64,000 bases of DNA from Rugamonas rubra (GTDB taxonomy: Bacteria; Pseudomonadota; Gammaproteobacteria; Burkholderiales; Burkholderiaceae_D), in NCBI RefSeq assembly GCF_900114705.1, contig NZ_FOTW01000008.1, positions 186,001-250,000 on the forward strand, given 5' to 3'. A program made the position numbers and the translations under genes. Below are positions 35,323-59,332 of this stretch, one piece after another. The stretch's first letter is position 1, and every line of letters begins with the position of its first letter. Below the pieces are notes generated by a model. It did no database searches, had not been told where the DNA came from, and saw nothing but the letters and a program-made list of their open reading frames with translations.

Positions 35323-36396
35323 ATGAAGAAAATAGTAATGATAGGAACACGTTTCGACACCATGGGTGGCATCTCCGCCGTAGTCAACGTGTATCGCGCC
35401 GCCGGCTTGTTCGAGCGCCTGCCCATCGAGTACATCGCCACCCATTGCGACGGCGGCGCCGGCGCCAAGCTGCGCATCCTCGCCGCAGCCCTGTGGCGCT
35501 TCGCCGGCCTCCTGCTGCGCGGCCAGGTCGGCCTGCTGCACGTCCACGTCTCGCGCCGCGCCAGCTTCTGGCGCAAATCCGTGTTCTTCTTGGCCGCCTT
35601 CGCGTTTCGTGTGCCTGCCGTGCTGCACCTGCACAGCGGCGCCTTCCACGATTTTTACGAACGCGACTGCGGGGCCGTGAAAAAACGGCTGGTGCGCTAC
35701 GTCTTCGACCACGCGGCCCACGTTGTGGTGTTGTCGCAGACCTGGAAGAGTTGGGTCGCCAGCATCAGCGGCAACCGCCACATCACGGCGATCTACAACC
35801 CGGTTCTGCTGGCAGAGCCGGCGGGCGACGAGGCGCGGGTCGCCGGACAGACGCTGTTCCTCGGCCGTCTGGGGCACAACAAAGGCAGCTACGATCTGCT
35901 CAGCGCCGCCGCCGCCGTGCGCGCAGCGCAGCCCGGGCTGCCGCTGCGCCTGCAACTGGGCGGCGACGGCGAGGTGGAACAGGTGCGTGCGCGCGCGCAG
36001 GCGCTGGGCATCGCCGACCGCGTCGACCTACTGGGCTGGGTCTCCAGCGCCGACAAGGCCGCCCGCTTGGCGCGGGCTGTGGTGTACGTGCTGCCCTCCT
36101 ACAGCGAGGGCCTGCCGATGAGTGTGCTTGAGGCGATGGCGGCGGGATTGCCGGTGCTGACCACCCCGGTCGGCGGCATCCCCGAGGCTGTCAGCGACGG
36201 CGTCGAAGGCTTCCTGGTCGCCCCGGGCGACGTGGCGGCGCTGGCCGAGCGCTGGTCGCGCCTGCTGGCCGACCCAGCGCTGGCGCGGCGCATGGGCGAG
36301 GCGGCGCGGCGCAAGGTGGCCTCCACCTTCTCGGCGCAAGCGGTGCTGCCGCAACTCGAGTCGGTCTACCTCAGCCTGGGGTTCGCCGCACGATGA
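35323..36396 (+). CDS. Glycosyltransferase family 4 protein
   Basis: A 357-residue GT-B enzyme. The N-terminus is MKKIVMIGTRFDTMGGISAVVNVYRAAG; the donor domain has LFLGRLGHNKGSYDLLSAAAAV and the E-x7-E motif in PSYSEGLPMSVLEAMAAGLPVL. It would transfer a sugar from a nucleotide donor to the EPS repeat unit. The ATG at 35323 is preceded by ACGAGGAAGC; the frame upstream to 35224 is not needed. Its stop overlaps the start of the next gene by 4 bp (ATGA), showing coupling with the heparinase-fold protein. Confidence 0.9.
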   Translation: MKKIVMIGTRFDTMGGISAVVNVYRAAGLFERLPIEYIATHCDGGAGAKLRILAAALWRFAGLLLRGQVGLLHVHVSRRASFWRKSVFFLAAFAFRVPAVLHLHSGAFHDFYERDCGAVKKRLVRYVFDHAAHVVVLSQTWKSWVASISGNRHITAIYNPVLLAEPAGDEARVAGQTLFLGRLGHNKGSYDLLSAAAAVRAAQPGLPLRLQLGGDGEVEQVRARAQALGIADRVDLLGWVSSADKAARLARAVVYVLPSYSEGLPMSVLEAMAAGLPVLTTPVGGIPEAVSDGVEGFLVAPGDVAALAERWSRLLADPALARRMGEAARRKVASTFSAQAVLPQLESVYLSLGFAAR

Positions 36397-44634: not shown

Positions 44635-45678
44635 TTGCCTACAATTCCCACCCTCCTGCGCGGCCTGTGCTGTGCCACCATGCTGGCCTCGGCCGCCGCC
44701 TCGGCGCAGTTCAAGCCGGCCGCGGCCGCCGGCTTGCAGCCGGCGCAACTCGCCATCGTGGTCAACGACGACGAAGCCAACAGCGTGGAGATCGGCGAGT
44801 ACTACCGCCAGGCGCGCAACATACCGGCCAGGAACGTGGTGCATGTGCGCATTCCCGGCAAGCCCCACAAGCTCGACGCTGAACAGTTCCGCCAGCTCAA
44901 GGAGCAGATCGACGGCCAACTGGGCGCTGACATCCAGGCCGTGTTGATGGTCTGGACGGCGCCCTACGCGGTCGAGTGCAACTCGATCACGGCGGCGTAC
45001 ACGATGGGCTTCGACGCCGCGCTGTGCCAGAAACCCTGCGGGCCGGGCAAGCCGAGCGCCTATTACAACACCGCCTCGGCGCGGCCGCAGGCCGAGTTCG
45101 GCATGCGCCTGTCGATGCTGCTGCCGACCGAGTCGGTCGAGCAGGCCAAGGCGCTGATCGGGCGCGGCCAGGTCAGCGGCTTCTCGACGCCGGCGGCCAG
45201 CGCCTACTACCTGGTCACCAGCGAGCAGGCGCGCAACAGCCGGGCGCCGTTCTTTCCGCGCGCCATGGTGTTGCCGCAGAAAAAACTGACCATCAAGAAC
45301 CTTCACGCCGACAGCCTGGAGGACGCCAAGGACATCATGGTCTACCAGACCGGCATGGCGCGCGTGGCCAAGCTGGATACACTGCAGTTCCTGCCCGGCG
45401 CGCTGGCCGACCACCTGACCTCGGTCGGCGGCGACCTGCTCGGCGACGCCCAGATGAGCAGCCTGCGCTGGCTCGAGGCGGGCGCCACGGCCAGCTACGG
45501 CACCGTGTCCGAGCCGTGCAACTACTGGCAGAAGTTCCCCAATTCCACCGTGCTGCTGCAGCACTATCTACGCGGCGCCAGCGCCATCGAGGCCTACTGG
45601 CGCAGCGTGGCTTGGCCGGGGCAGGGCGTGTTCATCGGCGAGCCGTTGGCGGCGCCGTACCGGGGCGCGGCGCGGTAG
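44635..45678 (+). CDS. TIGR03790 family secreted protein
   Basis: A 347-residue protein with a signal peptide (LLRGLCCATMLASAAASAQF) and the TIGR03790 domain: LAIVVNDDEANSVEIGEYYRQARNIPARNVVHVRIP, then AVLMVWTAPYAVEC and, near the end, LRWLEAGATASYGTVSEPCNYWQKFPN. The family occurs, from memory, only in species with exosortase and has no known function. It lies directly behind the EPS locus terminator and before PEP-CTERM genes. The start is a TTG; a later ATG at 44680 would cut the signal peptide short. Confidence 0.82.
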   Translation: MPTIPTLLRGLCCATMLASAAASAQFKPAAAAGLQPAQLAIVVNDDEANSVEIGEYYRQARNIPARNVVHVRIPGKPHKLDAEQFRQLKEQIDGQLGADIQAVLMVWTAPYAVECNSITAAYTMGFDAALCQKPCGPGKPSAYYNTASARPQAEFGMRLSMLLPTESVEQAKALIGRGQVSGFSTPAASAYYLVTSEQARNSRAPFFPRAMVLPQKKLTIKNLHADSLEDAKDIMVYQTGMARVAKLDTLQFLPGALADHLTSVGGDLLGDAQMSSLRWLEAGATASYGTVSEPCNYWQKFPNSTVLLQHYLRGASAIEAYWRSVAWPGQGVFIGEPLAAPYRGAAR

Positions 45679-45810
45679 TGCCGCACGGCAATTATTTCAT
45701 ACAATATACATAACACTTTCCTGATGAATATGCTATCATCGCGACCAAGTCAGTAGCAATTCAATATGTCCCGGCATCCGGCCGGGGCAGATTATTCAGT
45801 TAAGGCAAGC

Positions 45811-46365
45811 ATGAAAAAGAATTTCAACAACATCGCCGCAGCCCTGGTCTTCGCCGGCTCCGCGCTGGTCGCCCAAGCCGCCCAGGCCGCCCCGATCGAC
45901 ATCAGCCAACTGCCGGAAGCGGTGACCCTGGCCGCAGGTACCGCCCACTTCGACGACACCTTCGCCAACGGCAACGCCCACAACCTGTTCAACGACCAGT
46001 TCACCTTCACCACCACCGGTGTGAGCAATGTCGACATGATCCTGACCTCGATCAGCACCAAGGCCAGCAACGGCCTGGACCTGACCGGTTTCGCCCTGTA
46101 CAACAGCAACAGCAACGCCATGGTCTTGAATGGCACCCAGCTCAAGACTGGCCTGCAGGACAAATGGACGCTGACGGTCAACTCGCTGGCGGCCGGTTCG
46201 TACTACTTCAAAGTGAGCGGCAATGTGGTTTCGGCCGCCGGCGGCGCTTTCGCCGGCAACGGCCACGTGCTGAGCGCGGTACCGGAAGCCGACACCTACG
46301 CCATGTTGCTGGCCGGCCTGGGCCTGCTGGGCGTGGTGGCACGCCGCCGCAGCAACGCGGCCTAA
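45811..46365 (+). CDS. FxDxF-type PEP-CTERM protein with a PEA variant motif
   Basis: A 184-residue secreted protein. The signal peptide (FNNIAAALVFAGSALVAQAAQA) is followed by FxDxF-like segments (AHFDDTFANGNAHNLFNDQFTF) and a C-terminal sorting tail VPEADTYAMLLAGLGLLGVVARRRSNAA. The third motif residue is Ala instead of Pro. The ATG at 45811 was preferred over an upstream one at 45766 because the signal peptide then has normal length. It is a predicted exosortase B substrate. Function unknown; the FxDxF group is common in Oxalobacteraceae. A second such gene follows 66 bp downstream. Confidence 0.83.
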   Translation: MKKNFNNIAAALVFAGSALVAQAAQAAPIDISQLPEAVTLAAGTAHFDDTFANGNAHNLFNDQFTFTTTGVSNVDMILTSISTKASNGLDLTGFALYNSNSNAMVLNGTQLKTGLQDKWTLTVNSLAAGSYYFKVSGNVVSAAGGAFAGNGHVLSAVPEADTYAMLLAGLGLLGVVARRRSNAA

Positions 46366-46431
46366 GTTCGACCTCCTTACTTTAGATAATCGGCGGACGC
46401 CACGGCGGCCGCCCTCACTTTCGGTGACACT

Positions 46432-47010
46432 ATGCATAAATTGACCCAATCCCTGATCCTGGCCCTGGCCCTGGCCGGTTCCAGCATCGCCCACGCCGCC
46501 ACCGACCTGAGCGCCGCGTCGGTCGACCTGACCGCCGACCTGCTGAGCTCGTCGTCGGCCGCCTTCGGCCAGACCATCCACCTGAGCAACGCGGCCGACG
46601 TCGGCGCCGTGAACAACTTCTTCATCGACAACTACACCTTCACCCTGTCGGGCGCCAACGACCTGTCCAGCCTGGTGACCTCGCTGATCGCCGCGCCGAA
46701 CTCCGGCCTGATCATCACCGGCTTCAACCTGCTGAGCAATAACGCCGTGGTGCTGGCCGGCCAGCAGAACCTGGTCGACTTCGACGCCGCCGACCAGGCT
46801 TGGTCGTTCGACAGCACCCAGCCGCTGAACGCCGGCAGCTACACGCTGCAAGTGCGCGGCTACGCCGCCGACACCACCGCCGGCAGCTACAGCGGCAACA
46901 TCGGCATCGCCGCCGCCGTGCCGGAACCAGAAACCATCGCCATGCTGCTGGCCGGCCTGGGTCTGATCGGCGTGGTCAGCCGTCGCCGCAAAGTGGCCGT
47001 CGCCGCGTAA
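46432..47010 (+). CDS. FxDxF-type PEP-CTERM protein
   Basis: A 192-residue secreted protein with signal peptide MHKLTQSLILALALAGSSIAHA, an N-terminal FFIDNYTF segment of the FxDxF type and a C-terminal VPEPETIAMLLAGLGLIGVVSRRRKVAVAA. It resembles the gene in front (45811) in size and plan, although the two are clearly diverged. Function unknown. It is followed by a strong terminator that carries a group II intron relic directly behind its T run. Confidence 0.87.
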   Translation: MHKLTQSLILALALAGSSIAHAATDLSAASVDLTADLLSSSSAAFGQTIHLSNAADVGAVNNFFIDNYTFTLSGANDLSSLVTSLIAAPNSGLIITGFNLLSNNAVVLAGQQNLVDFDAADQAWSFDSTQPLNAGSYTLQVRGYAADTTAGSYSGNIGIAAAVPEPETIAMLLAGLGLIGVVSRRRKVAVAA

Positions 47011-47027
47011 GTCTTTCTGCTGCAACA

Positions 47028-47059
47028 AAAACGGAGGCCTTCGGCCTCCGTTTTTTTTT
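47028..47059 (+). terminator. Rho-independent terminator behind the FxDxF gene
   Basis: ACGGAGGCC (47031-47039), loop TTC, GGCCTCCGT (47043-47051), followed by T residues to 47059. The sequence after the T run is intron-like (see the next feature), so the terminator probably served as the insertion target. Confidence 0.92.
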
Positions 47060-47860
47060 GCGCGCCCAGTATTGGCGCCCTCCCGTGGGTGCAAGTCGCG
47101 CCATGAGCTGACCACGGTGAGCGAAGTGAGGCGCAGCTGCATGAGGGCAGCCGATTGCGCCAACGTGCCGCTTGCGGCACGGCACGGAGCATGCATCACG
47201 AGCCGATGGGCAAGAGCCGTATCGAAAGCGTTGCCGATCAGGACGGGCTGGCCATGGGCCGCGAAGCTCTTCTCGCCAAGGAGCGGCGGCGTAGATGGCG
47301 CGGTTGAGTGATGGTGGAGTGTGTCTCTTACTTGGGCCGAAACCCGACGGCGGCGAACTCGAGTTCGGCATCCCGACGGTGGTGGACCGCCAAATTCAGC
47401 AGGCCCTGCCACACGTGCTGCAACCGATACTTGATCCCACTTCCAGCGAGCATAGCTACGGTTTTCGTCCGGGCGGGCATGCGCAAGACGTGGTGTTGGC
47501 CGCCCAAGCGTGCGCCCAGTCCGGCTTGCGGATCGTGGTCGAAGTCGACTTGTCGAAGCCCTTCGGCAGGGGTAGCTGGGGTGGAAGGGGCGCCCGGTGA
47601 TCGCGAATTGCTCAAGCAGGCAGCAGTGCCGTCGGTGGCAAGATAAGGCGCGGCATGCGGCCGACGCTGGTGGGACTATAGCGATAGTTGCTGAAAACGG
47701 TAATGGCTTTCGGCTATTTCGACCGACTGGATGTACCTCGCCTATCTTAACTTCAACCACTCGAGCCGTCCGGTGCGGACTCGCATGGCCGGTGGTGTGG
47801 CTGGGGAGGGGGGGCATCAAAAACAATTCACCGCTCGCCCAATGCCGAGTTATAGGGGGG
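47060..47860 (+). mobile_element. Decayed group II intron
   Basis: The first bases behind the terminator (GCGCGCCCAGTATTGGCGCC, then TGGGTGCAAGTCGCGCC and GGTGAGCGAAGTGAGGCGCAG) have the look of the 5' end of bacterial group II introns. A fragment of the intron-encoded reverse transcriptase follows (about 47337-47570). Near 47762-47800 a domain V-like hairpin stretch appears (GAGCCGTCCGGTGCGGACTC...GGTGGTGTGG). The total of about 800 bp is far shorter than the 2-2.5 kb of an intact intron, so most of the reverse transcriptase gene is deleted. Position behind a terminator hairpin is the target habit of class C introns. The 3' boundary is approximate. Confidence 0.72.
47337..47570 (+). pseudogene. 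Group II intron reverse transcriptase fragment
   Basis: The frame reads KPDGGELEFGIPTVVDRQIQ and continues to SEHSYGFRPGGHAQDVVLAAQ and VVEVDLSKPF. These are the RT-0 to RT-3 segments of LtrA-type proteins (KPxGGxRPLGIPTVxDRxxQ and SYGFRPGRSAH). Only about 80 of the usual 400-plus residues remain. The catalytic YADD, maturase and endonuclease parts are missing, and typical Arg residues are replaced (RPLG is ELEFG). It is inactive. Confidence 0.85.
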
Positions 47861-48179
47861 GGGCTAGTTGCGTTTGCCGGTGGCGTTGTGGGAATGAGCG
47901 GTTCGTGCCTGGACGGAACTGCGACTGCGGCCCGCGACGGTCATAGCACAGTCGGGTGCAGGCAGCCATTGCGCCATTATCAAAAGTTGGGACGGGTTTG
48001 TGTTCAATTAAATAATTGTGTTCTAAAAACTATTTATATATTATAATTATTGCAATTTATACCACTAATTGACTGGGTACATCGCCGGCGAGACTGATCG
48101 AGTCGGTGAACGCATCACTTGCACGCCCCTGCGGCACAGAGGTCCATGGCCGCTCCACCCAACGAAACGTAAGGAAATC
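47861..48179 (+). promoter_or_regulatory. Upstream region of cassette A1-B1, with A/T-rich promoter-like element
   Basis: After the intron relic the sequence turns A/T-rich. TATTTATATATTATA (48031-48045) recurs identically at 52107-52121 before the second cassette, and contains TATAAT (48042-48047) as a possible -10. No good -35 was found. The last 35 bp before the ATG (GGCCGCTCCACCCAACG and AAGGAAATCATG) are also nearly the same as before A2. The element is thus part of the duplicated unit. Confidence 0.55.
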
Positions 48180-49115
48180 ATGAACAACATACATCGCAGT
48201 GTTCTGCTTGCCGTATGTGCCTTGTTTGGCATATCGAGCGGCGCGCAGGCCTACGGCATAGGCGAATCGATTATGCGTGTCAGCGATCTGAAGCTGACCG
48301 ATTCGGCAGGTGCCCAGTACACTAATGCTAAATTGTTGTCATCGTCGAGCATGGCGTTCGCCAGCGTCTTCAACTCCACGTCTCCAGGTGTGGGCGGGGG
48401 GGACTGGTGGCGCTGGAGCACTTTTGGTGACGGGTGGGATCCATACGAACATTGTTCCATCGCGGGCCACTTGGATTGCGGGCCGTTTTACCTTAACTAT
48501 TTCCTACCATTCGACCCCCAGGGATATCATTTTCTCCCTGGAGTTGGATATAGGAATACCGACCTGCGGATCAAGGGCGATATCCTCTACAAGCCGGCGA
48601 CCCCGATGAACATCGATATGCGGGGCGATGCCGCCACCTATGGGGCCGAGGCATATTACGGCGGCGTGAGCTTGGTTCAATTCGACATGACGTTCAAGCT
48701 TGCGTCGGCCGATCGCATCACCTTGTCGTTCGATGCGGATGCCTTCAGCAAGGCGAGCAACGGTGGCAGCGGAGAGCGTCTCTTGGATCGCGCGACGTCG
48801 CAAGTGAAGTTCGAGGCAAGGCTGATCAACAAGACGACAGGCGTACAGATTTTTTACTTTGCTCCTGAGGAGTTGAACTTTCTGAACGCTCCGTTGCACG
48901 GCGACTCTGTGATGGATCCAGCGGCGAAATCGTTCTCCGTCAGTTCATCCTTGCTCAACACGTCGGACGAGTACGCGTTCTCGTTTACGCAACTCACCGC
49001 CAGTTATGCCTCCACGGCGCCTGTTCCCGAGCCGTCTGGCGTCGCCATGCTGGGCGCCGGGATCGGGCTGCTGGCCTTCGTGAGAAGGCGTTCGCGCAAG
49101 CCGGCCGCGCCGTGA
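48180..49115 (+). CDS. PEP-CTERM protein A1 of the duplicated cassette
   Basis: A 311-residue secreted protein of an unrecognised family. Signal peptide MNNIHRSVLLAVCALFGISSGAQA; early motif GIGESIMRVSDLKLTDSAGAQYT; a Cys pair (HCSIAGHLDCG); central YYGGVSLVQFDMTFKLASADRITLSFDADAFSK. The C-terminal VPEPSGVAMLGAGIGLLAFVRRRSRK is a PEP-CTERM tail with Gly in the helix. Most residues match A2 (52247), and the motifs are shared with B1/B2. Predicted to be sorted by exosortase B. The ATG follows AAGGAAATC. Confidence 0.87.
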   Translation: MNNIHRSVLLAVCALFGISSGAQAYGIGESIMRVSDLKLTDSAGAQYTNAKLLSSSSMAFASVFNSTSPGVGGGDWWRWSTFGDGWDPYEHCSIAGHLDCGPFYLNYFLPFDPQGYHFLPGVGYRNTDLRIKGDILYKPATPMNIDMRGDAATYGAEAYYGGVSLVQFDMTFKLASADRITLSFDADAFSKASNGGSGERLLDRATSQVKFEARLINKTTGVQIFYFAPEELNFLNAPLHGDSVMDPAAKSFSVSSSLLNTSDEYAFSFTQLTASYASTAPVPEPSGVAMLGAGIGLLAFVRRRSRKPAAP

Positions 49116-49197
49116 TGCCGGGCGATTCGCCTGCACACCGCCGCACTCCACCTCCGCAGCCGACGTCAAGTAGCTGCTTCACGCACGCAAGGAAACC

Positions 49198-50136
49198 ATG
49201 AACAAACATATCATTGCCGGTACGCTGATGGCCGTTGCCACCCTGTGCCTTTCGACTGGCGCCCATGCCCGTGGGGTAGCGGAGACGCTGCTTCGTGTTA
49301 GCAACCTGAAACTGAGTGATTCGGTTGGCGCGGCATACACGCGGGCCGCGTTCTCGGCTTTGTCCACTAGCAACGTCACCAGCAACATTCTGTACACCGG
49401 TGCGCCAGAGAAACAAATCGGCGTTGGATACTACTTGCCCGGCTTGGGCAGCGTCGACCTGCCGACTCTGTGCCAGCAGTCGCGGCGCAACGATTGTGCC
49501 AGGGTCTATTCCAATTATTTCCGGCCTTTTAGCCGCGATGAATATAGCTTTCCCGCCGGTTACGATTACCTCCACGCCGATCAGTTGATCAAGGGGGATC
49601 TCATCGGCAACGTGCCGTCGACATTGAGCATCGATACGCGTGGTGACGCCGCAATCCGTTATGTTGATAAGGGGTATTACGGCGGCGCGAGCTCGGTAAA
49701 CCTGCAAATGAAGTTCAAGCTCGCCTCGGAGAATCGCCTTACCCTGTCGTTCGATGCGGACGCCTACTCCAATGTGTACGGCTTCAGTCCCAACTGGGAC
49801 GAGCGGGAGCACATGGAGTCGCAAATAAGGTTCGGGGCGACATTGATGAACAAGACGACCGGCGCCACGGTGTTTTCCTACGCCCCTGAGGAGATCAACT
49901 TCGGCAACGACCCTGAGTTTGGGCAGGTCGTGCTGGACCCGGCAGCGAAGTCGTTCAGCATTACCTCGGCCCTGCTCAATACGTCGGACGACTATGTGCT
50001 GTCGATCACCCAGATGGCGGGAAGCTTTGCGAGGATCTCGGCGATCCCCGAGCCATCCGGCGCCGCGATGCTGGGCGCCGGTATTGGCCTGCTGGCGTTC
50101 CTGAGACGGCGGTCGCGGACGGCCTCGGTGGCCTGA
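49198..50136 (+). CDS. PEP-CTERM protein B1 of the duplicated cassette
   Basis: A 312-residue secreted protein paralogous to A1. Signal peptide MNKHIIAGTLMAVATLCLSTGAHA; ETLLRVSNLKLSDSVGAAYTRAAFSAL; Cys pair in LCQQSRRNDCA; YYGGASSVNLQMKFKLASENRLTLSFDADAYSNVYG; tail IPEPSGAAMLGAGIGLLAFLRRRSRT. It is about as distant from A1 as B2 is from A2, so A and B are old paralogues while B1 and B2 are recent copies. The gap to A1 is 82 bp; it carries AAGGAAACC before the ATG. Function unknown. Confidence 0.87.
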   Translation: MNKHIIAGTLMAVATLCLSTGAHARGVAETLLRVSNLKLSDSVGAAYTRAAFSALSTSNVTSNILYTGAPEKQIGVGYYLPGLGSVDLPTLCQQSRRNDCARVYSNYFRPFSRDEYSFPAGYDYLHADQLIKGDLIGNVPSTLSIDTRGDAAIRYVDKGYYGGASSVNLQMKFKLASENRLTLSFDADAYSNVYGFSPNWDEREHMESQIRFGATLMNKTTGATVFSYAPEEINFGNDPEFGQVVLDPAAKSFSITSALLNTSDDYVLSITQMAGSFARISAIPEPSGAAMLGAGIGLLAFLRRRSRTASVA

Positions 50137-50382
50137 GGCGGCGCGAAATGGCGGCCGGCGATGTCCGCGCCGGCCGTCGGCCGTGCTAAAGGCGTATGGC
50201 CGCTTCGACTAACCTGCTTTCTCGACATGAGGCAATGAATCAACTAGCATTGCCGCAACGTTGGATATGGACCTGCCAGCTAGCCTGTTTGAGGTAGTGG
50301 AATGGACGCCCCCTTTCAGAAACGGCATCTAAGTGTCAAAGTGATGATGTCACTCAACCACGTTCCGAAGGGGGCGCCTGAA

Positions 50383-50681
50383 ATGAAGGTTGCAACAATT
50401 GGTGCCGATTTGGCAAAAAGCGTAATTCAGATCCATGGGGTCGATTCCCACGGCAACACGGTGCAGAGGAAGCAGCTCAAACCAAGCAGGTGACGGAATT
50501 CTTCGCCAAGCTGGAACGCTGCCTGATCGGGATGGAGGCGTGCGGCAGCGCCCACTACTGGGCCAGAAAGCTGCAGCAACTGGGGGCATACGGTGAAGCT
50601 GATGGCACCGCTGTTCGTCAAGCCCTACGTGAAGACGAACAAGAATGACATGGCTGATGCCGAAGCGATCTGCGATGGTTC
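50383..50681 (+). pseudogene. IS110-family transposase N-terminal fragment, frameshifted
   Basis: Three frames joined by two frameshifts give MKVATIGADLAKSVIQIHGVD, then VTEFFAKLERCLIGMEACGS (and AHYWARKLQQLG), then GHTVKLMAPLFVKPYVKTNK and NDMADAEAICD. This is the RuvC-like DEDD half of IS110 transposases, with its Asp, Glu and Asp. The sequence stops at the left end of the next element, so the C-terminal Ser-type half is gone. Just upstream (50306 and 50367) is a small inverted repeat CCCCCTTTC/GAAGGGGG. The element is dead. Confidence 0.87.
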
Positions 50682-50686
50682 GCGTC

Positions 50687-52090
50687 AACTATCTTGGCCA
50701 GCCGGCGTCAGTTATCTCGGCCGGTGAAGCGAGGGTTTCTTAGTCCTTTTTTCCTCGGCTGCGGCGTAGTGCTCGCGGTCGCGGCGGCGCGGCGCCGATA
50801 GCTCTCGAGGTTCAGTTCGAAGATGGTCGAGTGGTGCACCAATCGGTCGACGGCGGCGAGCGTGATCGCCGGTTCCGGAAACACCTGGTCCCACCCGGAG
50901 AACAGCTGGTTCGCCGTCAGCGCCAGGCTCTTCCTTTCATAGCGCACCGCGACCAACTCGAACAGCACGGACGTCTCTGTCTGGTCCCGCCGGACATAGC
51001 TCAGGTCGTCCAGGATCAAGAGGTCGAAGCGGTCCAGCCTGGAGATCTCGGCCGGTAGACGCATCTCGCGCCGCCCGATCTGCAACTTTTGCACCAGGTC
51101 GCTGGTGCGCGTGAAGTGGACCCCGTAGCCGTAGTCGATCAGGCCGGAGCCGATGGCGCAGAGCAGATGGCTCTTGCCCACGCCAGGCGGACCGAACTAC
51201 AGCAGGTTGGCGTCCTGCTCGAGCCAGCTGTCGCCGTCGACCAGGGCGGTGAGGTGGGTCTTCGACACGGTCGGCGCGGTGGCGAAGTTGAAGTTCGACA
51301 GCAGCTTGCCTGGCAGCATCTGCGACTCCAGCCGGTCCCGCTCCAGGCGCCGGGTCAGCAGCTCGTGCTTGTCCTTGTTCTGGACTGCCGCCGCCAAGCT
51401 GTCGGTGCGATGCTCCTGGGGCACGCCGTCCATCATCCACCCGCAGTTCTGCGGGCCCGACGACAGTGCCAAGAAGCTCTCGCCGCCCAGCACCACCTCG
51501 ACGTAGCGCCAGCCCGAATAGGCCAGCCCGAACTGGTACAGCAGGTGCAGCGAGGCGGCACCGGCGACCGTTACCTGCAGCACGGCGGCGTTGGTGAAGT
51601 CCGACAGGCCCAACCGGCCCGGCCGGCGCGCCTGTGCGAAGTACACCTCGCGCTCCTTGACATGGATGGCGGTCCAACTGCGCACCCGACGCTGCAACGT
51701 ATGCAGCAAAGCGCCGTCGTACTGCTCTGGGTGGCGCCCCTGCATCTCCTTGAGCAAGGTGGTCGCCGTCAGCGCCGGCGGGGGCGCCAGCAACGGCACG
51801 ATCGCGCTCCGCCAGAGCGCTTCGAACGGGGCGGCGGGGTGCGCCAACCACGCGTCTCGCGCTGCGCCGTCCAGCCGCCGCGCCGAACGCTGATGCCGAC
51901 CTTGGCGGCGGCGACTTCCTGGCCGAGCTTGGTTCTGCGTTTCTTGTAGATGCTCACTTGGTGACCTCCAATGCGTTTGCCGGCCACTCGTCGTCTCCCT
52001 CAGCGCGATGCTGAATGAAACAACCATAATCCTCGCTTCCGCATCGGGCCGGTTTCAGGTGACGAACCGGCCAAGATAATTGTCGTTAAC
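50687..52090. mobile_element. IS21-family element, internally deleted
   Basis: The left end (AACTATCTTGGCCAGCCGG from 50687) and the right end (CCGGCCAAGATAATTGTCG to about 52085) are inverted copies around TATCTTGGCC. Between them, on the minus strand, is a short IstA followed in frame by part of IstB. A second TTATCTCGGCC at 50712 resembles the multiple terminal repeats of IS21 elements. An intact IS21-type element is 2-2.5 kb; this one is about 1.4 kb. It separates cassette A1-B1 from A2-B2. No target duplication was confirmed. Confidence 0.8.
50708..51990 (-). pseudogene. IstA-IstB in-frame deletion fusion with frameshift and nonsense codon
   Basis: Reading on the minus strand: an IstA start at 51987 (GTG; MAGKRIGGHQVSIYKKRRTK, KVGISVRRG), a frameshift near 51890, and the IstA middle (PALTATTLLKEMQGRHPEQY, GRLGLSDFTNAAVLQV, SGWRYVEVVLGGESFLAL, PQEHRTDSLAAA). 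This is fused in frame to IstB (SNFNFATAPTVSK). A TAG at 51197-51199 stands directly before FGPPGVGKSHLL. IstB then continues (LDRFDLLILDDLSYV, GWDQVFPEPAITLAAVDRLVHHSTIFELNLESYR) to 50708. The IstA DDE end and the IstB N-terminus are missing. Confidence 0.85.
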
Positions 52091-52246
52091 AATGTATTTA
52101 TATAATTATTTATATATTATACTTGTTGCTGTATTTGCCATTTATCTCTGCGGCTGGCGACATTGATTGGGTCGCCGCGCGTTGCCCACGTTCGAACCCG
52201 GCCCCGTGCTTTTAGGCCGCTCCACTCAACGTAGCGAAAGGAAATT
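52091..52246 (+). promoter_or_regulatory. Upstream region of cassette A2-B2
   Basis: The A/T-rich block beginning right behind the IS21 end contains TATTTATATATTATA (52107-52121), identical to 48031-48045, and TATACT as possible -10. The end of the region (GGCCGCTCCACTCAACG, then AAAGGAAATTATG) matches the leader of A1. This shows that the promoter was duplicated with the genes. A second, shifted run TATTTATATAATTATT (from 52095) may be a partial repeat. Confidence 0.55.
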
Positions 52247-53194
52247 ATGAAGAACACACGTCTTGGAATTTTGCTCGCCATATGTGTCTTGTCAGGTGTA
52301 TCGAGCAGTGCGCAGGCCTACGGCGTGGGCGAATCGATTCTGCGTGTCAGTGATCTGAAGCTGACCGATTCGGTCGGTGCGCGCTATACCAGCGCCAAGT
52401 TTTCGACATTGTCGAGCAAGGCCTTCGCCAGCAACCTCAACCATTATTCGCCGGGCCACCAAGGGGAGGGGGGGCAGTGGTCCTACTCCACCAACTTTGG
52501 TGTCGTCGACCTAACCACTAACTGCGGTATTGATAGTGGAGTGCCTTGCGGACCGACCTATCCCAACTATTTCCTGCCTTTCTCGCCCGATGGCTACCAT
52601 TTCGTCCCAGGCGTTGGGTACCGCTATGCCGACCAACTGATCAAAGGCGACCTCATCATTAGCCCGGCAACTCCAATGAGCATCGATACGCGTGGTGATG
52701 CCGCCACAAATGGGGGCAATGGGTATTACGGCGGCTCGAGTTTGGTTCAATTCGACATGACGTTCAAGCTCGCTTCGGCCGATCGCCTCACCTTGTCGTT
52801 CGATGCGGACGCCTTCAGCAAGGTGAGCAACAATGGCAGCGGGGTGCATTTCTTTGATCGCGCGGCGTCGCAAGTGAAGTTCGAAGCAAGGCTTGTCAAC
52901 ACCACGACTGGCGCGCAGATTTTTTCCTTTGCTCCAGACGAGTTGAATTTTCTGAATGCGCCGTGGCACGGCGACTCGGTGATGGATCCGGCGGCGAAAT
53001 CGTTCTCCGTCAGTTCATCCTTGCTCAACACGTCGGACGAGTATGCGTTCTCGTTCACGCAGTTAACTGCCACTTTTGCCTCCGCCACGGCGGTTCCCGA
53101 GCCGTCTGGCGTTGCCATGCTGGGCGCCGGGATCGGGCTGCTGGCCTTCCTGAGAAGGCGCTCGCACAAGTCGGCCGCGCTGGGATGCCGATGA
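52247..53194 (+). CDS. PEP-CTERM protein A2 of the duplicated cassette
   Basis: A 315-residue copy of A1: signal peptide MKNTRLGILLAICVLSGVSSSAQA; YGVGESILRVSDLKLTDSVG; Cys pair NCGIDSGVPCG; YYGGSSLVQFDMTFKLASADRLTLSFDADAFSKV; tail VPEPSGVAMLGAGIGLLAFLRRRSHK. Compared with A1, the stop TGA has become GGA, so the protein runs three residues longer (GCR) to the next TGA. Most differences lie between residues 45 and 110. Predicted exosortase B substrate; function unknown. Confidence 0.87.
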   Translation: MKNTRLGILLAICVLSGVSSSAQAYGVGESILRVSDLKLTDSVGARYTSAKFSTLSSKAFASNLNHYSPGHQGEGGQWSYSTNFGVVDLTTNCGIDSGVPCGPTYPNYFLPFSPDGYHFVPGVGYRYADQLIKGDLIISPATPMSIDTRGDAATNGGNGYYGGSSLVQFDMTFKLASADRLTLSFDADAFSKVSNNGSGVHFFDRAASQVKFEARLVNTTTGAQIFSFAPDELNFLNAPWHGDSVMDPAAKSFSVSSSLLNTSDEYAFSFTQLTATFASATAVPEPSGVAMLGAGIGLLAFLRRRSHKSAALGCR

Positions 53195-53266
53195 TGCGTC
53201 TGCACACAGCGGTAATCCACCTCCGCAGCGAATGGCATGTGGCTGCTCTACGTACTTAAGGAAACC

Positions 53267-54202
53267 ATGAACAAAAATATCTTTCGGGGCGCGCTGACAG
53301 CCGTCGTTGTCCTTTGCATCTCGACTGGCGCCCATGCCAGAGGGTCGGCGGAGACGCTGCTCCGTGTCAGCAACCTGAGGCTGAGTGATTCGGTTGGCGC
53401 AGCGTACACGCGCGCCGCGTTCTCGGCGTTAGCCACTAGTAATGCCGCCAGTTCCATTCTGTACACTGGTACGCCGGAGCAACAAGCCGGTGTTGGATAT
53501 TACTTGCCCAGCTTGGGTAACGTCGACCTGCCGACTCTGTGCCAGCAGCCGGTACGCAACGATTGCGCCTTGGTTTTTTCTAACTATTTCCAACCATTTG
53601 GTCTCGATGGATATGGCTTCGGCCGGGGCTATGATTACCTCCATGCCGATCAGAGGATCAAGGGGGATCTCATTGGCAACTTGCCATCGGCGCTGAGCAT
53701 CGATACGCGCGGTGACGCCCAGATCCAGTACGAAGATGGATACTACGGCGGCGTGAGTTCGGTAAACCTGCAAATGAAGTTCAAGCTCGCCTCTGAGAAC
53801 CGCCTTACTCTGTCGTTCGACGCGGACGCCTATTCCAACGTGTATGGCTACAGTCCCGACTGGTACGAGCGGGAGCACATGGAGTCGCAAGTGAAGTTCG
53901 AGGCGACACTGACAAATAGGACGACTGGTGCCACAGTTTTTTCCTACGCCCCTGACGAGATCAACTTTGGGAACGACCCCGAGTTTGGGATCGTCGTGAA
54001 GGACCCTGCAGCGAAGTGGTTCAGCGTTACCTCGGCTTTGCTCAATACGTCGGACGAGTACGTACTGTCAATCACCCAAGTGGCGGGCAGCTACGCGAGG
54101 ATATCGGCGGTTCCCGAGCCATCTGGCGCCGCGATGCTAGGCGCCGGCATTGGCTTACTGGCGTTCCTGAGAAGGCGGTCGCGAACGGCCTTGGCGGTCT
54201 GA
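53267..54202 (+). CDS. PEP-CTERM protein B2 of the duplicated cassette
   Basis: A 311-residue copy of B1: signal peptide MNKNIFRGALTAVVVLCISTGAHA; ETLLRVSNLRLSDSVGAAYTRAAFSALATS; LCQQPVRNDCA; YYGGVSSVNLQMKFKLASEN; tail VPEPSGAAMLGAGIGLLAFLRRRSRT. The 72-bp gap from A2 is alignable to the A1-B1 gap (CTGCACAC, TCCACCTCCGCAGC, AAGGAAACC). The reading frame is intact, which suggests continued selection. An in-frame upstream ATG at 53237 was rejected because the signal peptide starts at 53267. Confidence 0.87.
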   Translation: MNKNIFRGALTAVVVLCISTGAHARGSAETLLRVSNLRLSDSVGAAYTRAAFSALATSNAASSILYTGTPEQQAGVGYYLPSLGNVDLPTLCQQPVRNDCALVFSNYFQPFGLDGYGFGRGYDYLHADQRIKGDLIGNLPSALSIDTRGDAQIQYEDGYYGGVSSVNLQMKFKLASENRLTLSFDADAYSNVYGYSPDWYEREHMESQVKFEATLTNRTTGATVFSYAPDEINFGNDPEFGIVVKDPAAKWFSVTSALLNTSDEYVLSITQVAGSYARISAVPEPSGAAMLGAGIGLLAFLRRRSRTALAV

Positions 54203-54645: not shown

Positions 54646-55185
54646 ATGAAAAAAATCCACTCCATGCTGGCGGTGCTCACCTTGGCCGGCGCCACCCTGG
54701 CACCCGTCGCCGCGCAGGCGGCCGACGTCAGCCAAGCGGCGCAGACCATCACCTTGACGGCGGGTACCAACTACTTCGGCCACTCCTTCGCGGGCGGCAT
54801 CGGCGACACCTTCTCCGACCGTTACAACTTCACCACCAGCAGTTTCAGCAATTTGGGTTCGTTGGTCTCGGCCTTCAGCCCGACCATGCTCGACGACATC
54901 AAGATCAGCGGCCTGTGGCTGTACAACTCGGCCAACATGTCGCTGGGCGGCACCCAGGTGCTGGACGGCCAGGTCGACTTGTGGACGCTGGCGACCAGCC
55001 ATCTGGCGGCCGACAGCTACTATCTGCTGGTCAAGGGCGAGCTGCTGTCGGCGTCGCCATCCAGCTACGCCGGCACGTTGACGGTGACGCCGGTGCCGGA
55101 ACCCGAGACCTACGGCATGTTGTTGGCCGGCCTGGGCCTGGTTGGCTATCTGGCGCGCCGGCGCGGCGCCATCAAGGCGGCGTAG
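54646..55185 (+). CDS. FxDxF-type PEP-CTERM protein
   Basis: A 179-residue secreted protein. Signal peptide MKKIHSMLAVLTLAGATLAPVAAQA; N-terminal FGHSFAGGIGDTFSDRYNFTT, which contains the FxDxF-like pattern; a LWLYNSANMSLGGTQVLDGQ segment similar in place to the two genes at 45811 and 46432; tail VPEPETYGMLLAGLGLVGYLARRRGAIKAA. Predicted exosortase B substrate, function unknown. A strong terminator follows. Confidence 0.88.
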   Translation: MKKIHSMLAVLTLAGATLAPVAAQAADVSQAAQTITLTAGTNYFGHSFAGGIGDTFSDRYNFTTSSFSNLGSLVSAFSPTMLDDIKISGLWLYNSANMSLGGTQVLDGQVDLWTLATSHLAADSYYLLVKGELLSASPSSYAGTLTVTPVPEPETYGMLLAGLGLVGYLARRRGAIKAA

Positions 55186-55260: not shown

Positions 55261-55444
55261 GCCGGCCCCGACCATCGGTTTGCCGCTCCCTGCTTAGTCC
55301 GTTCGGACTAAAGCCCTGTCATCAAGTCGTCATTCGTGCCCGTTAATATGCAAATTGCAAGTTTGAATTCATTTTGTTAACAAACGCGAGCCGCAGCGGC
55401 CGCCGCGCCGTGCACGAGCACCCACTAGACGATCAGGACGCAAC

Positions 55445-58400
55445 ATGAAAAACACCCTTTCCCCGAACACCGCCCGCAGTGTGGCGACGCCCGGTCGCCT
55501 GACCGTGATGGCGGCCCTGCTGGCCGGCCTGTGCGCCCCGGCGCTGGCATCCGACGTGGTCATCAGCCAGGTCTACGGCGGCGGCGGCAACAACGGCGCC
55601 ACCTACAAGAATGACTTCATCGAGCTGTTCAACCGTGGCGGCGTGGCCGTCAACGTCAACGGCTGGAGCGTGCAGTACGCCAGCGCCAACGGCGCCAGCT
55701 GGCAGAAGACCGCCTTGCCGAACATCACCCTGCAACCCGGCCAATACCTGCTGGTGCAGCAGGCCGCCGGCACCGGCGGCAGCACCGCCTTGCCGACACC
55801 GGACGCCAGCGCCTCGATCGCCATGAGCGGTACCGCCGGCAAGGTGCTGCTGGCCAGCGTCAACACCGCCTTCAGCGGAACCAACCCGAGCGGGGCCACG
55901 GTCAAGGACCTGGTCGGCTTCGGCGGCGCCAACGGTTTCGAGGGCGCGCCGACACCGTTGCTGAGCAACGCCACGGCGGCCCTGCGCAACGCCGACGGCT
56001 GCGCCGACACGGACAACAACCAGGCCGACTTCGCCGTGCTGGCGCCGACGCCGCGCAACAGCAGCTCGCCGCTGCACGCCTGCGGCGCGCCGTCGGCGCC
56101 ACCGATCGTCGCCGCCTGCCCGGCGGCGCTGCAACTGGCCGCCGGCAGCGGCGGTTCGGCCGTGCTCGGCGCCAGCGACGCCGACGGCATCGTCAACAGC
56201 GCCAGCATCAGCGCCGGCGCCGTGCCGGGCATCAGCCTGGTCAACTTCATCGCCGCCTCCTCGGCCGGCGGCAGCGCCAGCGCCAGCCTGCAGGTGGCCG
56301 CCAACGTGGCGGTGGGCAGCTATCCGCTGACCATCCTGTTCGGCAACAACCAGTCGCAAAGCGTCAGCTGTGACGTCGCCGTGACGGTGCAGGCCGCCGC
56401 CGGCCTGAGCCACACGATTCCGCAGATCCAGGGCAGCGGCGCCAGCAGCCCCTACGCAGGCACCACGCAGACCACCGAGGGCGTAGTCACGCTGAAGGTG
56501 GGCGGCGGCTTCTTCATCCAGGACGCCAACGGCGACGGCGACCCGACCAGCTCGGACGGTATCTTCGTCTACACCGGCGCGGCGGCGTTCGCCGCCAACG
56601 TCGGCGACAAGGTGCGCGTCAGCGGCACCGTGTTCGAATACAAGCCGAGCGGCGCGACGCGCTCCTACACCGAACTGAAGGATGTCACTTCGGTGCTGGT
56701 GCAGAGCAGCGGCCACCAGGTCGTGCCGACCAACGTCGAGCTGCCGCACGCCGACCTGGGCCAGCTCGAGGGCATGCTGGTGCGCTTCGTGCGTCCGCTG
56801 ACCATCGCGCAGACCGCCTTCCTCGGCGCCCGTGGCGAGCTGAGCCTGTCGTCCGGCCGCCTCGAGGTGCCGACCAACCGCTACCGTCCCGGCACGCCGG
56901 AAATGCTGGCCTTGGCCGCCGCCAACGAGCGCGACCTGATCGTCCTCGACGACGGCATCTTCGTCACGCCGAGCACCATCCCCTACATCGGCGCCGACAG
57001 CACGGTGCGCGCCGGCGACCTGGTCTCCAACCTGACCGGCGTGGTCGACTTCGGCGCCATCGGCGGCGGCGGCGCCGCCTTCAAGCTGCAGCCGAGCGAG
57101 GCGCCGCAGATCACCCGCGACAATCCGCGCACGGCCCATCCCGAACTGGCCGCCGGCAACGTCAAGGTGGCCAGCGCCAACGTGCTGAACTTCTTCACCA
57201 CCTTCACCAACGGCAGCGACGTGACCGGCGCGACCGGCCAGGGTTGCGCCCTGGGCAGCAGCGTCAGCAAGTCGAACTGCCGCGGCGCCGACAACCTGGC
57301 CGAGTTCATCCGCCAGCGCGACAAGATCGTCAACGAGCTGAAGGGCATCGACGCCGACGTCTACGGCTTGATGGAGATCCAGAACAAGGGCGACTACTCG
57401 GTCACCTACCTGGTCGACGCGCTCAACGCGGCCATCGGCGGCCTGCCGACCTACGCCGTGGTGCCCAAGCCGGCCAACACCGGCACCGACGCGATCCGCG
57501 TCGCGATGATCTACAAGCCGGCCAAGCTGAGCCTGGTGGGCGGCGCGCTGGCCGACGGCGACGCCGTCAACAACCGTCCGCCGATGGCGCAGACCTTCCG
57601 CGCCGGCAACGGCGAGAAGTTCTCCATCGTCGTCAACCACCTGAAGTCGAAGGGCGGTTGCACCACGGCCAGCGGGGCCGACGCCGACCAGAAGGACGGC
57701 CAGGCTTGCTGGAACGCCACCCGCGTGTTGCAGGCCAAGCGCCTGGTCAACAGCTTTGTGCCGCAGGTGGCCGCCGCCGCCGGCGACCCGGACGTGCTGC
57801 TGATCGGCGACTTCAACGCCCACGGCTTCGAGGACCCGATCGACGCCGTCACCAAGGCCGGCTTCGTCAACCAGCTCGAGCGCCACGTGCGGCCGAAGGC
57901 CCTGCCTTACTCCTACGTGTTCGACAGCGAGAGCGGCTACCTCGACCACGCCCTGGCCAGCGCCGCGCTGGACCGCCAGGTGGTCGACGCCACCGAGTGG
58001 CACATCAACGCCGACGAGCCGACCGTGATCGACTACAACACCGACGGCAAGCCGCAGGACCTGTACAACGCCTTGCCTTACCGCGCCTCCGACCACGACC
58101 CCGTGGTGGTCAGCCTGAACCTGCAGCCGGCCTACAGCGACGTCACCGCGTCGCTGCGCACCAGCGCCTCGGCGCTGGTGTTCAACCGCGCCACTGGCAA
58201 GTTCAGCGGCAAGTTGAGCATCAGCAACAGCGGCGCGAGCGCCTTGAGCGGCCCGTTCCAGGTGCGGTTCGACGGCCTGGCCGCCGGCGTCACCCTGGCC
58301 AACGCCAGCGGCAGCCACAACGGCGCGCCCTACATCAGCATCGACGCGGCCACCCTGGCACCCGGCGCCACCCTGACCCTGCCGCTGAGCTTCAGCCGCA

Positions 58401-58453
58401 GCGGCAGCGCCAATATCGGCTACACCACCACCGTCTTCAGCGGTAAATTCTAA
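55445..58453 (+). CDS. ExeM/NucH-family extracellular endonuclease
   Basis: A 1002-residue secreted protein. The signal peptide ends near APALASDVV. A lamin-tail domain follows (about 38-165; VVISQVYGGGGNNGATYKND), then a linker, an OB-fold-like region (about 330-460) and an endonuclease/exonuclease/phosphatase domain (about 570-890). The last carries KVASANVLNFF, GLMEIQN, VNHLKSKGG, IGDFNAHG and SDHDPV, giving the Asn, Glu, His, Asp/Asn and Asp/His catalytic set. It degrades extracellular DNA and is typical of biofilm formers. The C-terminal ~110 residues have no PEP-CTERM tail. The next gene starts 6 bp behind, so both are co-transcribed. Confidence 0.92.
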   Translation: MKNTLSPNTARSVATPGRLTVMAALLAGLCAPALASDVVISQVYGGGGNNGATYKNDFIELFNRGGVAVNVNGWSVQYASANGASWQKTALPNITLQPGQYLLVQQAAGTGGSTALPTPDASASIAMSGTAGKVLLASVNTAFSGTNPSGATVKDLVGFGGANGFEGAPTPLLSNATAALRNADGCADTDNNQADFAVLAPTPRNSSSPLHACGAPSAPPIVAACPAALQLAAGSGGSAVLGASDADGIVNSASISAGAVPGISLVNFIAASSAGGSASASLQVAANVAVGSYPLTILFGNNQSQSVSCDVAVTVQAAAGLSHTIPQIQGSGASSPYAGTTQTTEGVVTLKVGGGFFIQDANGDGDPTSSDGIFVYTGAAAFAANVGDKVRVSGTVFEYKPSGATRSYTELKDVTSVLVQSSGHQVVPTNVELPHADLGQLEGMLVRFVRPLTIAQTAFLGARGELSLSSGRLEVPTNRYRPGTPEMLALAAANERDLIVLDDGIFVTPSTIPYIGADSTVRAGDLVSNLTGVVDFGAIGGGGAAFKLQPSEAPQITRDNPRTAHPELAAGNVKVASANVLNFFTTFTNGSDVTGATGQGCALGSSVSKSNCRGADNLAEFIRQRDKIVNELKGIDADVYGLMEIQNKGDYSVTYLVDALNAAIGGLPTYAVVPKPANTGTDAIRVAMIYKPAKLSLVGGALADGDAVNNRPPMAQTFRAGNGEKFSIVVNHLKSKGGCTTASGADADQKDGQACWNATRVLQAKRLVNSFVPQVAAAAGDPDVLLIGDFNAHGFEDPIDAVTKAGFVNQLERHVRPKALPYSYVFDSESGYLDHALASAALDRQVVDATEWHINADEPTVIDYNTDGKPQDLYNALPYRASDHDPVVVSLNLQPAYSDVTASLRTSASALVFNRATGKFSGKLSISNSGASALSGPFQVRFDGLAAGVTLANASGSHNGAPYISIDAATLAPGATLTLPLSFSRSGSANIGYTTTVFSGKF

Positions 58454-58459
58454 GGAAAC

Positions 58460-59113
58460 ATGATGTTCGCACACACCACCTCCCTGACCCTGCGCCGCAG
58501 CCTGCTGGCGCTGGCCCTGTCCGCCCTGGCCGGCGCCGCCTCGGCCGACGTGCTGCACGTCGAGCTCGACACCAGCGGCTTCGGCCCGCTGAGCTGGATC
58601 GACCTGCAGTTCAATCCAGGCAACATGAACGGCGTCGTGCTGGCCGAGGTCAGCCTGTCGCACCTGAGCGGCTTCGACGCCAGCCTGGCGCCCGAACTGA
58701 TCGGCGACGTCACCGGCTCGGCGGCCAGCGGCTTCCACTTCGCCAACACCACCTCGTGGAACGACCTGTTCCACGCCGTGCGCGGCAAGGTCAGCTTCGA
58801 CGTCACCTTCAGCGGCCTGGCCGATCCCTCGTTCAACACGATCCAGTCGGCCTTCAGCGTCTCGCTGTACGGCGCCGACAAGGTCACCCAGCTGGGCAAC
58901 GCGGCCGCCGACGGCAGCCTGCTGCGCTTGGACTGGACGCCGTCGGCCGTGGCCGGCGGCAAGGGCAGCGTCAGCACCGGCTACCTGGACGGCGCCAACG
59001 TCAGCGTCAGCGCCGTGCCGGAACCGTCGAGCTGGCTGATGTTGGGCGCCGGCCTGGCCATGCTGGGTGGCGCCGTGCGCCGCCGCAACAAGGCCGCGCT
59101 GCCAGCGGCCTGA
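58460..59113 (+). CDS. PEP-CTERM protein, co-transcribed with the nuclease
   Basis: A 217-residue secreted protein: signal peptide (LRRSLLALALSALAGAASA), a mature domain starting DVLHVELDTSGFGPLSWIDLQFNPGN, and VPEPSSWLMLGAGLAMLGGAVRRRNK as sorting tail. It resembles a PEP-CTERM group common in Oxalobacteraceae with a beta-rich domain of unknown role. The 6-bp gap to the nuclease and AAGGAAAC before the ATG show co-translation. It may help hold the nuclease at the surface (inference). A second ATG at 58463 is equally possible. Confidence 0.86.
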   Translation: MMFAHTTSLTLRRSLLALALSALAGAASADVLHVELDTSGFGPLSWIDLQFNPGNMNGVVLAEVSLSHLSGFDASLAPELIGDVTGSAASGFHFANTTSWNDLFHAVRGKVSFDVTFSGLADPSFNTIQSAFSVSLYGADKVTQLGNAAADGSLLRLDWTPSAVAGGKGSVSTGYLDGANVSVSAVPEPSSWLMLGAGLAMLGGAVRRRNKAALPAA

Positions 59114-59168
59114 ATGGCTTGACGCCGGCCGTGCCGTGCGCCCTCGCGGCGCCGGTGCGGCGGCCATG

Positions 59169-59206
59169 AACACCGCCTTTCCCGCGTGGAGGGCGGTGTT
59201 TTTTTT
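59169..59206 (+). terminator. Rho-independent terminator of the nuclease operon
   Basis: AACACCGCC (59169-59177) pairs with GGCGGTGTT (59192-59200) and is followed by a T run to 59206. The loop is 14 nt. A short open frame that crosses it (59166-59249, ending GIYIGKL) is probably not a gene. Confidence 0.85.
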
Positions 59207-59332
59207 CGCCGTCGCCGCCGGCATGGGGATTTATATCGGCAAGCTCTAAATGGCTTAATAAAATCATATTAGTCATACAAATAACGTTGATGCATAGTTA
59301 AAAATGCCACCAACGTTATAGGAATCGCCCGG

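Follow-up and report, generated by a model that had tools for sequence, protein, structure and literature searches.

A diverged and tandemly duplicated EDSAP-1 branch of Rugamonas rubra, with tails and a locus that fit exosortase B and a family that fits exosortase A

Where a genome encodes PEP-CTERM proteins by the dozen alongside several exosortases, which enzyme takes which client is an open question, and a duplicated block in Rugamonas rubra bears on it. The stretch analysed here (hereafter the window) covers 64,000 nucleotides, C50:186001-250000 in our contig numbering, of a draft genome of 6.83 Mb in 82 contigs; Oxalobacteraceae is the family assignment used for this genome and its genus group. 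Its plus strand carries two consecutive A-B units, consisting of A1 (48180-49115, 311 aa), B1 (49198-50136, 312 aa), A2 (52247-53194, 315 aa) and B2 (53267-54202, 311 aa), which match the model NF041538, 'EDSAP-1 family PEP-CTERM protein', at 194.5, 195.3, 188.8 and 182.9 bits, respectively (cut-off 100), from model position 3-7 to position 307 of 307, tail included. The interest of the block lies in a contrast within this diverged and duplicated branch of EDSAP-1: its tail and its locus fit exosortase B (XrtB), and its family fits exosortase A (XrtA). The initial annotation had missed the placement of the block in an XrtB locus, as well as a promoter and a tail unlike those of the rest of EDSAP-1.

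The matches over the curated NF041538 cut-off rule out an undescribed family. The proposal of an undescribed exosortase-dependent surface system is thereby narrowed: A and B are a catalogued set of exosortase clients with no system of their own, and what stands is their being clients of unexplained function. Judging papers that name it by title and the start of the abstract, no literature on bacterial EDSAP was found, and the name 'EDSAP-1' appears in no PEP-CTERM paper among the matches listed; as far as seen, the family is catalogued and its function unexplained in the searched literature. The tails claimed for all four proteins are borne out by TIGR02595 (21.4-23.0 bits in four of four, cut-off 16) and less completely by Pfam PF07589, where three exceed the gathering score and B1 lies just under it (19.4 vs. 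20.7). At the other end, a basic N-terminus, a hydrophobic stretch and an A-x-A motif visible by eye make up a candidate Sec signal peptide. The proteins score 21.5-27 bits with the PepA family model (NF033554, cut-off 80), which makes them a different family, and 26-33 bits with the FxDxF family model (NF038126, cut-off 50), of which they are not members either.

Elsewhere, EDSAP-1 normally goes with XrtA. We searched a genus group of 74 genomes and a family-wide draw of 294, in which EDSAP-1 exceeded the cut-off in 29 and 55 genomes, respectively. XrtA was over its cut-off in 51 of the 74 genus genomes, with all 29 EDSAP-1 genomes among them (Fisher 5e-7), and in 116 of the 294 family genomes, including 51 of the 55 with EDSAP-1 (Fisher 5e-20), both tests counting genomes as independent though they are related. 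As for the four EDSAP-1 genomes without XrtA, one (G078) has one other exosortase, another (G273) has a fragment at a contig end, and in two (G090, G118) none was found; the last three assemblies are 89-93% complete and in 200-400 contigs. Fourteen EDSAP-1/XrtA pairs on the same contig, picked by hand and with no denominator, are 7-49 kb apart, 11 of them within 17 kb. In the genome under study, where TIGR02595 gives 60 matches at E<=1, three exosortases are encoded, namely the XrtB of the window and two XrtA, on contigs C31 and C62. Its fifth EDSAP-1 gene is situated on C31, about 7 kb from XrtA, and the interval encodes WecB, an outer-membrane protein of TIGR03016 and a tyrosine kinase associated with XrtA; in this locus (L081:1233-10379) XrtA takes the form of an XrtA-EpsI fusion and the EDSAP-1 is canonical. 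The A/B block is not near either XrtA gene, a test limited by contig ends.

Within the family, A and B form a branch that, by sequence, is nearly private to this genome. Relatives of A2 (E<=1e-12 in the 294 genomes, with at most seven candidates scored per genome) were 28-34% identical outside the own genome, except one at 42% in Pseudoduganella flava (G018). A quick tree of 75 rows with tails removed, for which the tool warned about long branches, joined A1 with A2 (SH-aLRT 94) and B1 with B2 (SH-aLRT 99), and united A, B and the P. flava gene (G018:C3:640165) in a single clade with an SH-aLRT of 99 and a stem branch of length 2.42; the P. flava gene may fall inside or outside A+B.

This branch lies downstream of XrtB. 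The exosortase gene (25237-26133, plus strand; TIGR03113 381.9 bits, cut-off 275), whose product probably does the processing in this locus, is embedded in a plus-strand exopolysaccharide cluster delimited by NCBIfam and Pfam matches (17406-44532). The cluster encodes a CAAX-like protease, EpsL, a glycosyl-1-P transferase, EpsD, EpsE, EpsF, EpsG, XrtB, EpsI type B, a flippase, a Wzy-like protein, glycosyltransferases, a UDP-sugar dehydrogenase, GalE and GMP/PMI, with XrtB, EpsI-B, EpsL and EpsD-G at 17-27 kb of the window. The A/B block follows on the same contig and strand, 22-28 kb downstream of XrtB, with exopolysaccharide genes between. Given this arrangement and the tails described below, XrtB may be the enzyme that processes the A/B tails, a pairing for which we consider the chances evenly balanced.

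The tails were compared with two 18-residue profiles taken from PEP onward, a negative log-odds denoting the XrtB type. One profile derives from EDSAP-1 genes with a sigma-54 site (30 tails, 22 distinct) and the other from 30 loci of 20 genus genomes without an XrtA match (26 tails usable), in each of which the single exosortase is XrtB (20/20, 343.9-402.3 bits, cut-off 275); with G012 and G033, which also lack an XrtA match, left out, the set comprises 20 of 22 single-exosortase genomes. Tail extraction missed four of the 60 loci, one retained XrtB-only tail (L162) is apparently out of frame, and in one XrtB-only locus (L144) the guessed start is preceded, at a distance of 975 nt, by a sigma-54-like site. 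On leave-one-out, 22 of 22 tails of the sigma-54 set were positive and 24 of 26 of the XrtB-only set negative. Log-odds were -21.6 for A1, -21.6 for A2, -24.9 for B1, -25.6 for B2 and -21.5 for the P. flava relative, as against +24.5 for the EDSAP-1 on C31. Of 73 scored EDSAP-1 tails (three further members had no recognisable tail and were left unscored), 64 were positive and nine negative, five of these being the A/B clade and the next lowest standing at -6.6. The tails of A, B and the P. flava relative are of the type found in XrtB-only genomes, and in this they differ from nearly every other EDSAP-1 tail that was scored. Part of this contrast is kinship, because the first profile was built from EDSAP-1 itself; a sigma-54 tail from outside EDSAP-1 (L180) scored +7.5. 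In the own genome, 25 of 30 loci were scorable and 24 of these tails were negative (A1 included), the sole positive being the C31 EDSAP-1.

These scores bear on an alternative in which XrtA, or whatever exosortase is present, serves A and B as it does ordinary EDSAP-1 proteins, their tails and promoters differ through drift that says nothing about the choice of enzyme, and the XrtB neighbourhood is a matter of chance. The genome does have two XrtA genes, the very long branch of the clade implies much drift, and the P. flava relative lies outside any XrtB locus. The change in the tails is nevertheless non-random, as all five clade members fall between -21 and -26, inside the XrtB-only range, and all 23 scored non-EDSAP-1 tails of the genome are negative as well. 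We regard drift among XrtA clients as unlikely, although it is the strongest of the competing explanations.

The promoter region departs from the family as well. Haft et al. (2006; PMC1569441) describe a sigma-54 motif (motif 2) with -24 (GG) and -12 (GC) elements 5' of proteobacterial PEP-CTERM genes, and pepA of Aquincola tertiaricarbonis has an RpoN1-dependent promoter mapped to TGGCAC and CTGCTT (PMC9850573). The pattern [TGC]GG[CAT]AC[GA]N4[TC]TGC[TA] was found within 300 nt upstream in 30 of 55 other fetched EDSAP-1 genes, 58-149 nt before the guessed start, compared with 0/55 on the opposite strand and a mean of 0.145 in order-1 random sequence. It is not enriched by itself, only upstream of EDSAP-1: genome-wide, eight genomes held 49 sites vs. 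42 for the reversed pattern, and when 30 of these sites were inspected as loci, a PEP-CTERM gene followed directly in three, two of them EDSAP-1. Within the same 300 nt, no such site precedes A1, A2 or the P. flava relative. When the 400 nt preceding each of A1 and A2 were scanned by score, the best values lay at or below the shuffle median, and the gap of about 83 nt before B1 scored between the shuffle median and the 95th percentile. Among the 29 PEP-CTERM genes of the own genome whose tails were extracted, the C31 EDSAP-1 alone has the site. In comparison with the PrsK/PrsR/sigma-54 regulon (PMC1569441), the PEP-CTERM genes likewise adjoin exopolysaccharide genes and the TGGCAC...CTGC of other EDSAP-1 genes fits motif 2, whereas A1 and A2 have neither the -24/-12 site nor TTTACA.

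The leaders of A1 (48017-48179) and A2 (52093-52246), both on the plus strand, share instead an AT-rich element in a window of 65% GC. The initial annotation had reported that the upstream element and leader are repeated, and indeed the leaders are alignable from about 48017 and 52093 (64% over 154 columns), which carries the repeat beyond the 48180-54202 first given, and exact TATTTATATATTATA occurs within both, at 48031-48045 and 52107-52121; at two or fewer mismatches these are its only sites in the window (mean 0.00 in 100 shuffles). By eye, the element carries a -10-like TATAAT in leader 1 and TATACT in leader 2. A sigma-70 scan gave nothing clearly above chance (4 vs. 2.2 +- 1.4 expected), so that conservation is what marks the element as a candidate sigma-70-like promoter. 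No terminator-like site was found in the A-B gaps, and A and B may be co-transcribed from this leader. Tails, promoter and locus together suggest that an EDSAP-1 branch changed its sorting enzyme, exchanging its XrtA-type tail for one of the XrtB type, losing the sigma-54 promoter and being amplified in an XrtB exopolysaccharide locus; we advance this tentatively, placing it a little short of an even chance.

A1 and A2 are 71.4% identical in amino acids and 77.8% in nucleotides, B1 and B2 81.7% and 83.1%, and A and B 45-54% in amino acids; the order is kept, the A-B gaps (82 nt in unit 1, 72 nt in unit 2) are alignable at 77% over 83 columns, similarity of B1 and B2 ends soon 3' of the stop codons, and a direct-repeat search returned the same four-copy register with a spacing of 1021/3049/1017. 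Since the copies differ by 17-22% in DNA, the block is no assembly echo. Synonymous divergence (NG86) is nearly equal in the two pairs (dS 0.53 for A1/A2, 0.498 for B1/B2), which fits a single duplication of the whole A-B block, while dS of 1.28-1.67 between A and B, near saturation, makes the A/B split older; growth of the family in two steps, as initially annotated, is supported by both dS and tree. No clear tract of gene conversion between copies emerged from windowed counts, in which the 3' halves showed fewer non-synonymous changes and ordinary synonymous differences.

Preservation of order, spacing and gaps in both units could also mean that A and B are different subunits of one surface assembly (a fibre, a layer or a receptor pair), the block being kept twice for stoichiometry. 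The age of the A/B split relative to the block duplication agrees with this, as does the recurrence of tandem EDSAP-1 pairs in genus g6 (e.g., G143:C19:43849-44796 and 44971-45915) and in G016. However, the P. flava contig bears a single EDSAP-1 match and not a pair, and the G016 pair consists in the tree of sister copies rather than of an A and a B; we regard a two-subunit assembly as quite improbable. The g6 and G016 pairs are placed apart from A/B in the tree; duplication as such is ordinary, tandem EDSAP-1 pairs being recurrent. One g6 genome has three consecutive EDSAP-1 matches (L094, G319:C4:106476-109550).

The block appears to be an addition to the locus. XrtB loci of nine relatives were fetched for comparison, of which G051 gave a 20 kb stretch without TIGR03790 or ExeM, and G016 and G002 gave TIGR03790 only. 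The conserved flanks, neighbours in relatives too, are here a TIGR03790 family gene on the left (44635-45678, plus strand; 224.8 bits, cut-off 67) and an ExeM/NucH extracellular nuclease on the right (55445-58453, plus strand; NF033681 549.7 bits, cut-off 300), and their start-to-start distance is 10.8 kb vs. 1.1-2.0 kb in the six of six relatives with both genes. At E 1e-6, A1 and B1 matched nothing in the fetched loci of the nine relatives, seven of which had FxDxF matches. Third-position GC content (GC3) of A1, A2, B1 and B2 is 0.70-0.75, vs. 0.85-0.95 in the six neighbours measured; in a separate comparison of 29 PEP-CTERM genes, drawn from the best 30 of 60 matches in the genome and not including B1 and B2, the two lowest values were those of A2 (0.722) and A1 (0.767), followed by 0.856.

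Mobile debris accompanies the block, in agreement with the decayed mobile DNA initially seen between the units. A decayed IS21-type element on the minus strand occupies 50708-52024, with an IstB_IS21 match of 118 bits (model 104-235 of 238) at 50708-51178, and the adjoining frame 51197-52024 has no Pfam match. Upstream of A1, a reverse-transcriptase (RT) fragment (47295-47597, plus strand) scores 26.7 bits with PF00078, narrowly missing its gathering score (29.6), and is presumably of the group II intron type; 50383-50645 may be IS110-like, but Pfam gave no such match on the short pieces. The low GC3 together with the IS21 and RT debris points to acquired DNA, and the region of about 10 kb with the A/B block was probably acquired horizontally. 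As for a donor, A2 had no match in 72,556 plasmid records, B2 had none in 50,697 phage records and no relatives of A2 were found in viral contigs; a scan of genome contigs returned three loci, of which P. flava accounts for two and Rugamonas sp. CCM 8940 for the third, and none of these searches found the donor of the block.

Such surroundings raise the further possibility that the copies are redundant duplicates being lost from IS-rich, low-GC DNA, A1 first. A1 has indeed evolved faster than A2, with 33 vs. 8 lineage-specific residues when B1 is the outgroup (p 1e-4) and 30 vs. 11 when it is B2 (p 0.004), i.e., it changed several times faster after the duplication, and the IS and RT debris lies nearby. 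Against decay, all four reading frames are intact, as first annotated, and both pairs are under purifying selection, with dN of 0.195 and 0.114 and dN/dS of 0.37 (codon bootstrap 0.27-0.52) and 0.23 (0.15-0.34) for A1/A2 and B1/B2, respectively. This dN/dS comparison, which the initial annotation had called for, speaks against pseudogenes under no selection. Moreover, of 500 neutral simulation runs with half of the differences, no more than 2.8% (A) and 8.2% (B) ended without a stop codon, and B1 and B2 kept pace with each other, the same relative-rate comparison showing no difference. Ongoing loss is therefore the least probable of the explanations considered, and very improbable in itself.

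An AlphaFold2 model of A2 built from seven sequences (pLDDT 71.7, pTM 0.75) predicts a beta-sandwich with strands between residues 26 and 279 and low-confidence loops, and Cys 93 and Cys 101, invariant in the seven aligned members, may form a disulfide. A PDB sequence search gave no match at E<=1, and Foldseek none at E<=1e-3, which does not exclude any family; CBM-like and Eph-receptor-like rows of the fold search were too weak to use. Two heparinase II/III-like genes within the exopolysaccharide cluster (31051-33294 and 36393-38378) suggest that its polymer is uronate-containing. The flocculation protein PepA of A. tertiaricarbonis resembles A and B in being a PEP-CTERM protein, and its overexpression is reported to decrease the soluble and increase the bound exopolysaccharide (PMC9850573). 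By analogy, A and B probably bind the polysaccharide of their cluster.

Neighbouring genes complete the picture of the locus. A and B are accompanied by FxDxF family PEP-CTERM genes on the plus strand, two before the block (45766-46365 and 46432-47010; NF038126 157.5 and 140.5 bits) and a third after it (54646-55185; 158 bits), with tails of a generally similar kind. The ExeM/NucH protein has a lamin-tail domain and is followed by a PEP-CTERM protein (NF038129; the two span 55445-59113), and six relatives show the same order towards the end of their XrtB loci. Very long minus-strand open frames opposite likely genes (45796-47826 and 55433-59224) were not taken as genes, because they are expected from high GC.

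Taken as a whole, the explanation we prefer is that a diverged EDSAP-1 branch moved from XrtA and sigma-54 to XrtB. An A-B unit would have arrived in the XrtB locus on horizontally acquired DNA, and one later block duplication would have given A1-B1 and A2-B2, since parted by IS debris. The four proteins would be exported by their N-terminal signal sequence, each with a two-cysteine beta-sandwich domain and a C-terminal PEP-CTERM tag; an exosortase, in this case the XrtB encoded upstream, would remove or exchange the tag and leave the domain in the surface or exopolysaccharide matrix, where it may bind or crosslink the polysaccharide of the same cluster. In its entirety, from acquisition through duplication and co-transcription to XrtB sorting and matrix binding, we judge this account to be about equally open to being right and wrong.

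In comparison with the rest of EDSAP-1, A and B match nearly the full model, tail included, and differ in being a long-branch clade that lies in an XrtB locus, has a tail of the XrtB type and lacks the sigma-54 site. If the branch has indeed changed its sorting enzyme, the pairing of a client with XrtA or XrtB would be decided by the core of its PEP-CTERM tail, some 14 residues following PEP, and cargo and tail would be exchangeable modules. Proteins with the same cargo and a different tail and promoter, such as A2 and the EDSAP-1 of C31, both present in the same cell, provide matched pairs for a tail-swap test.

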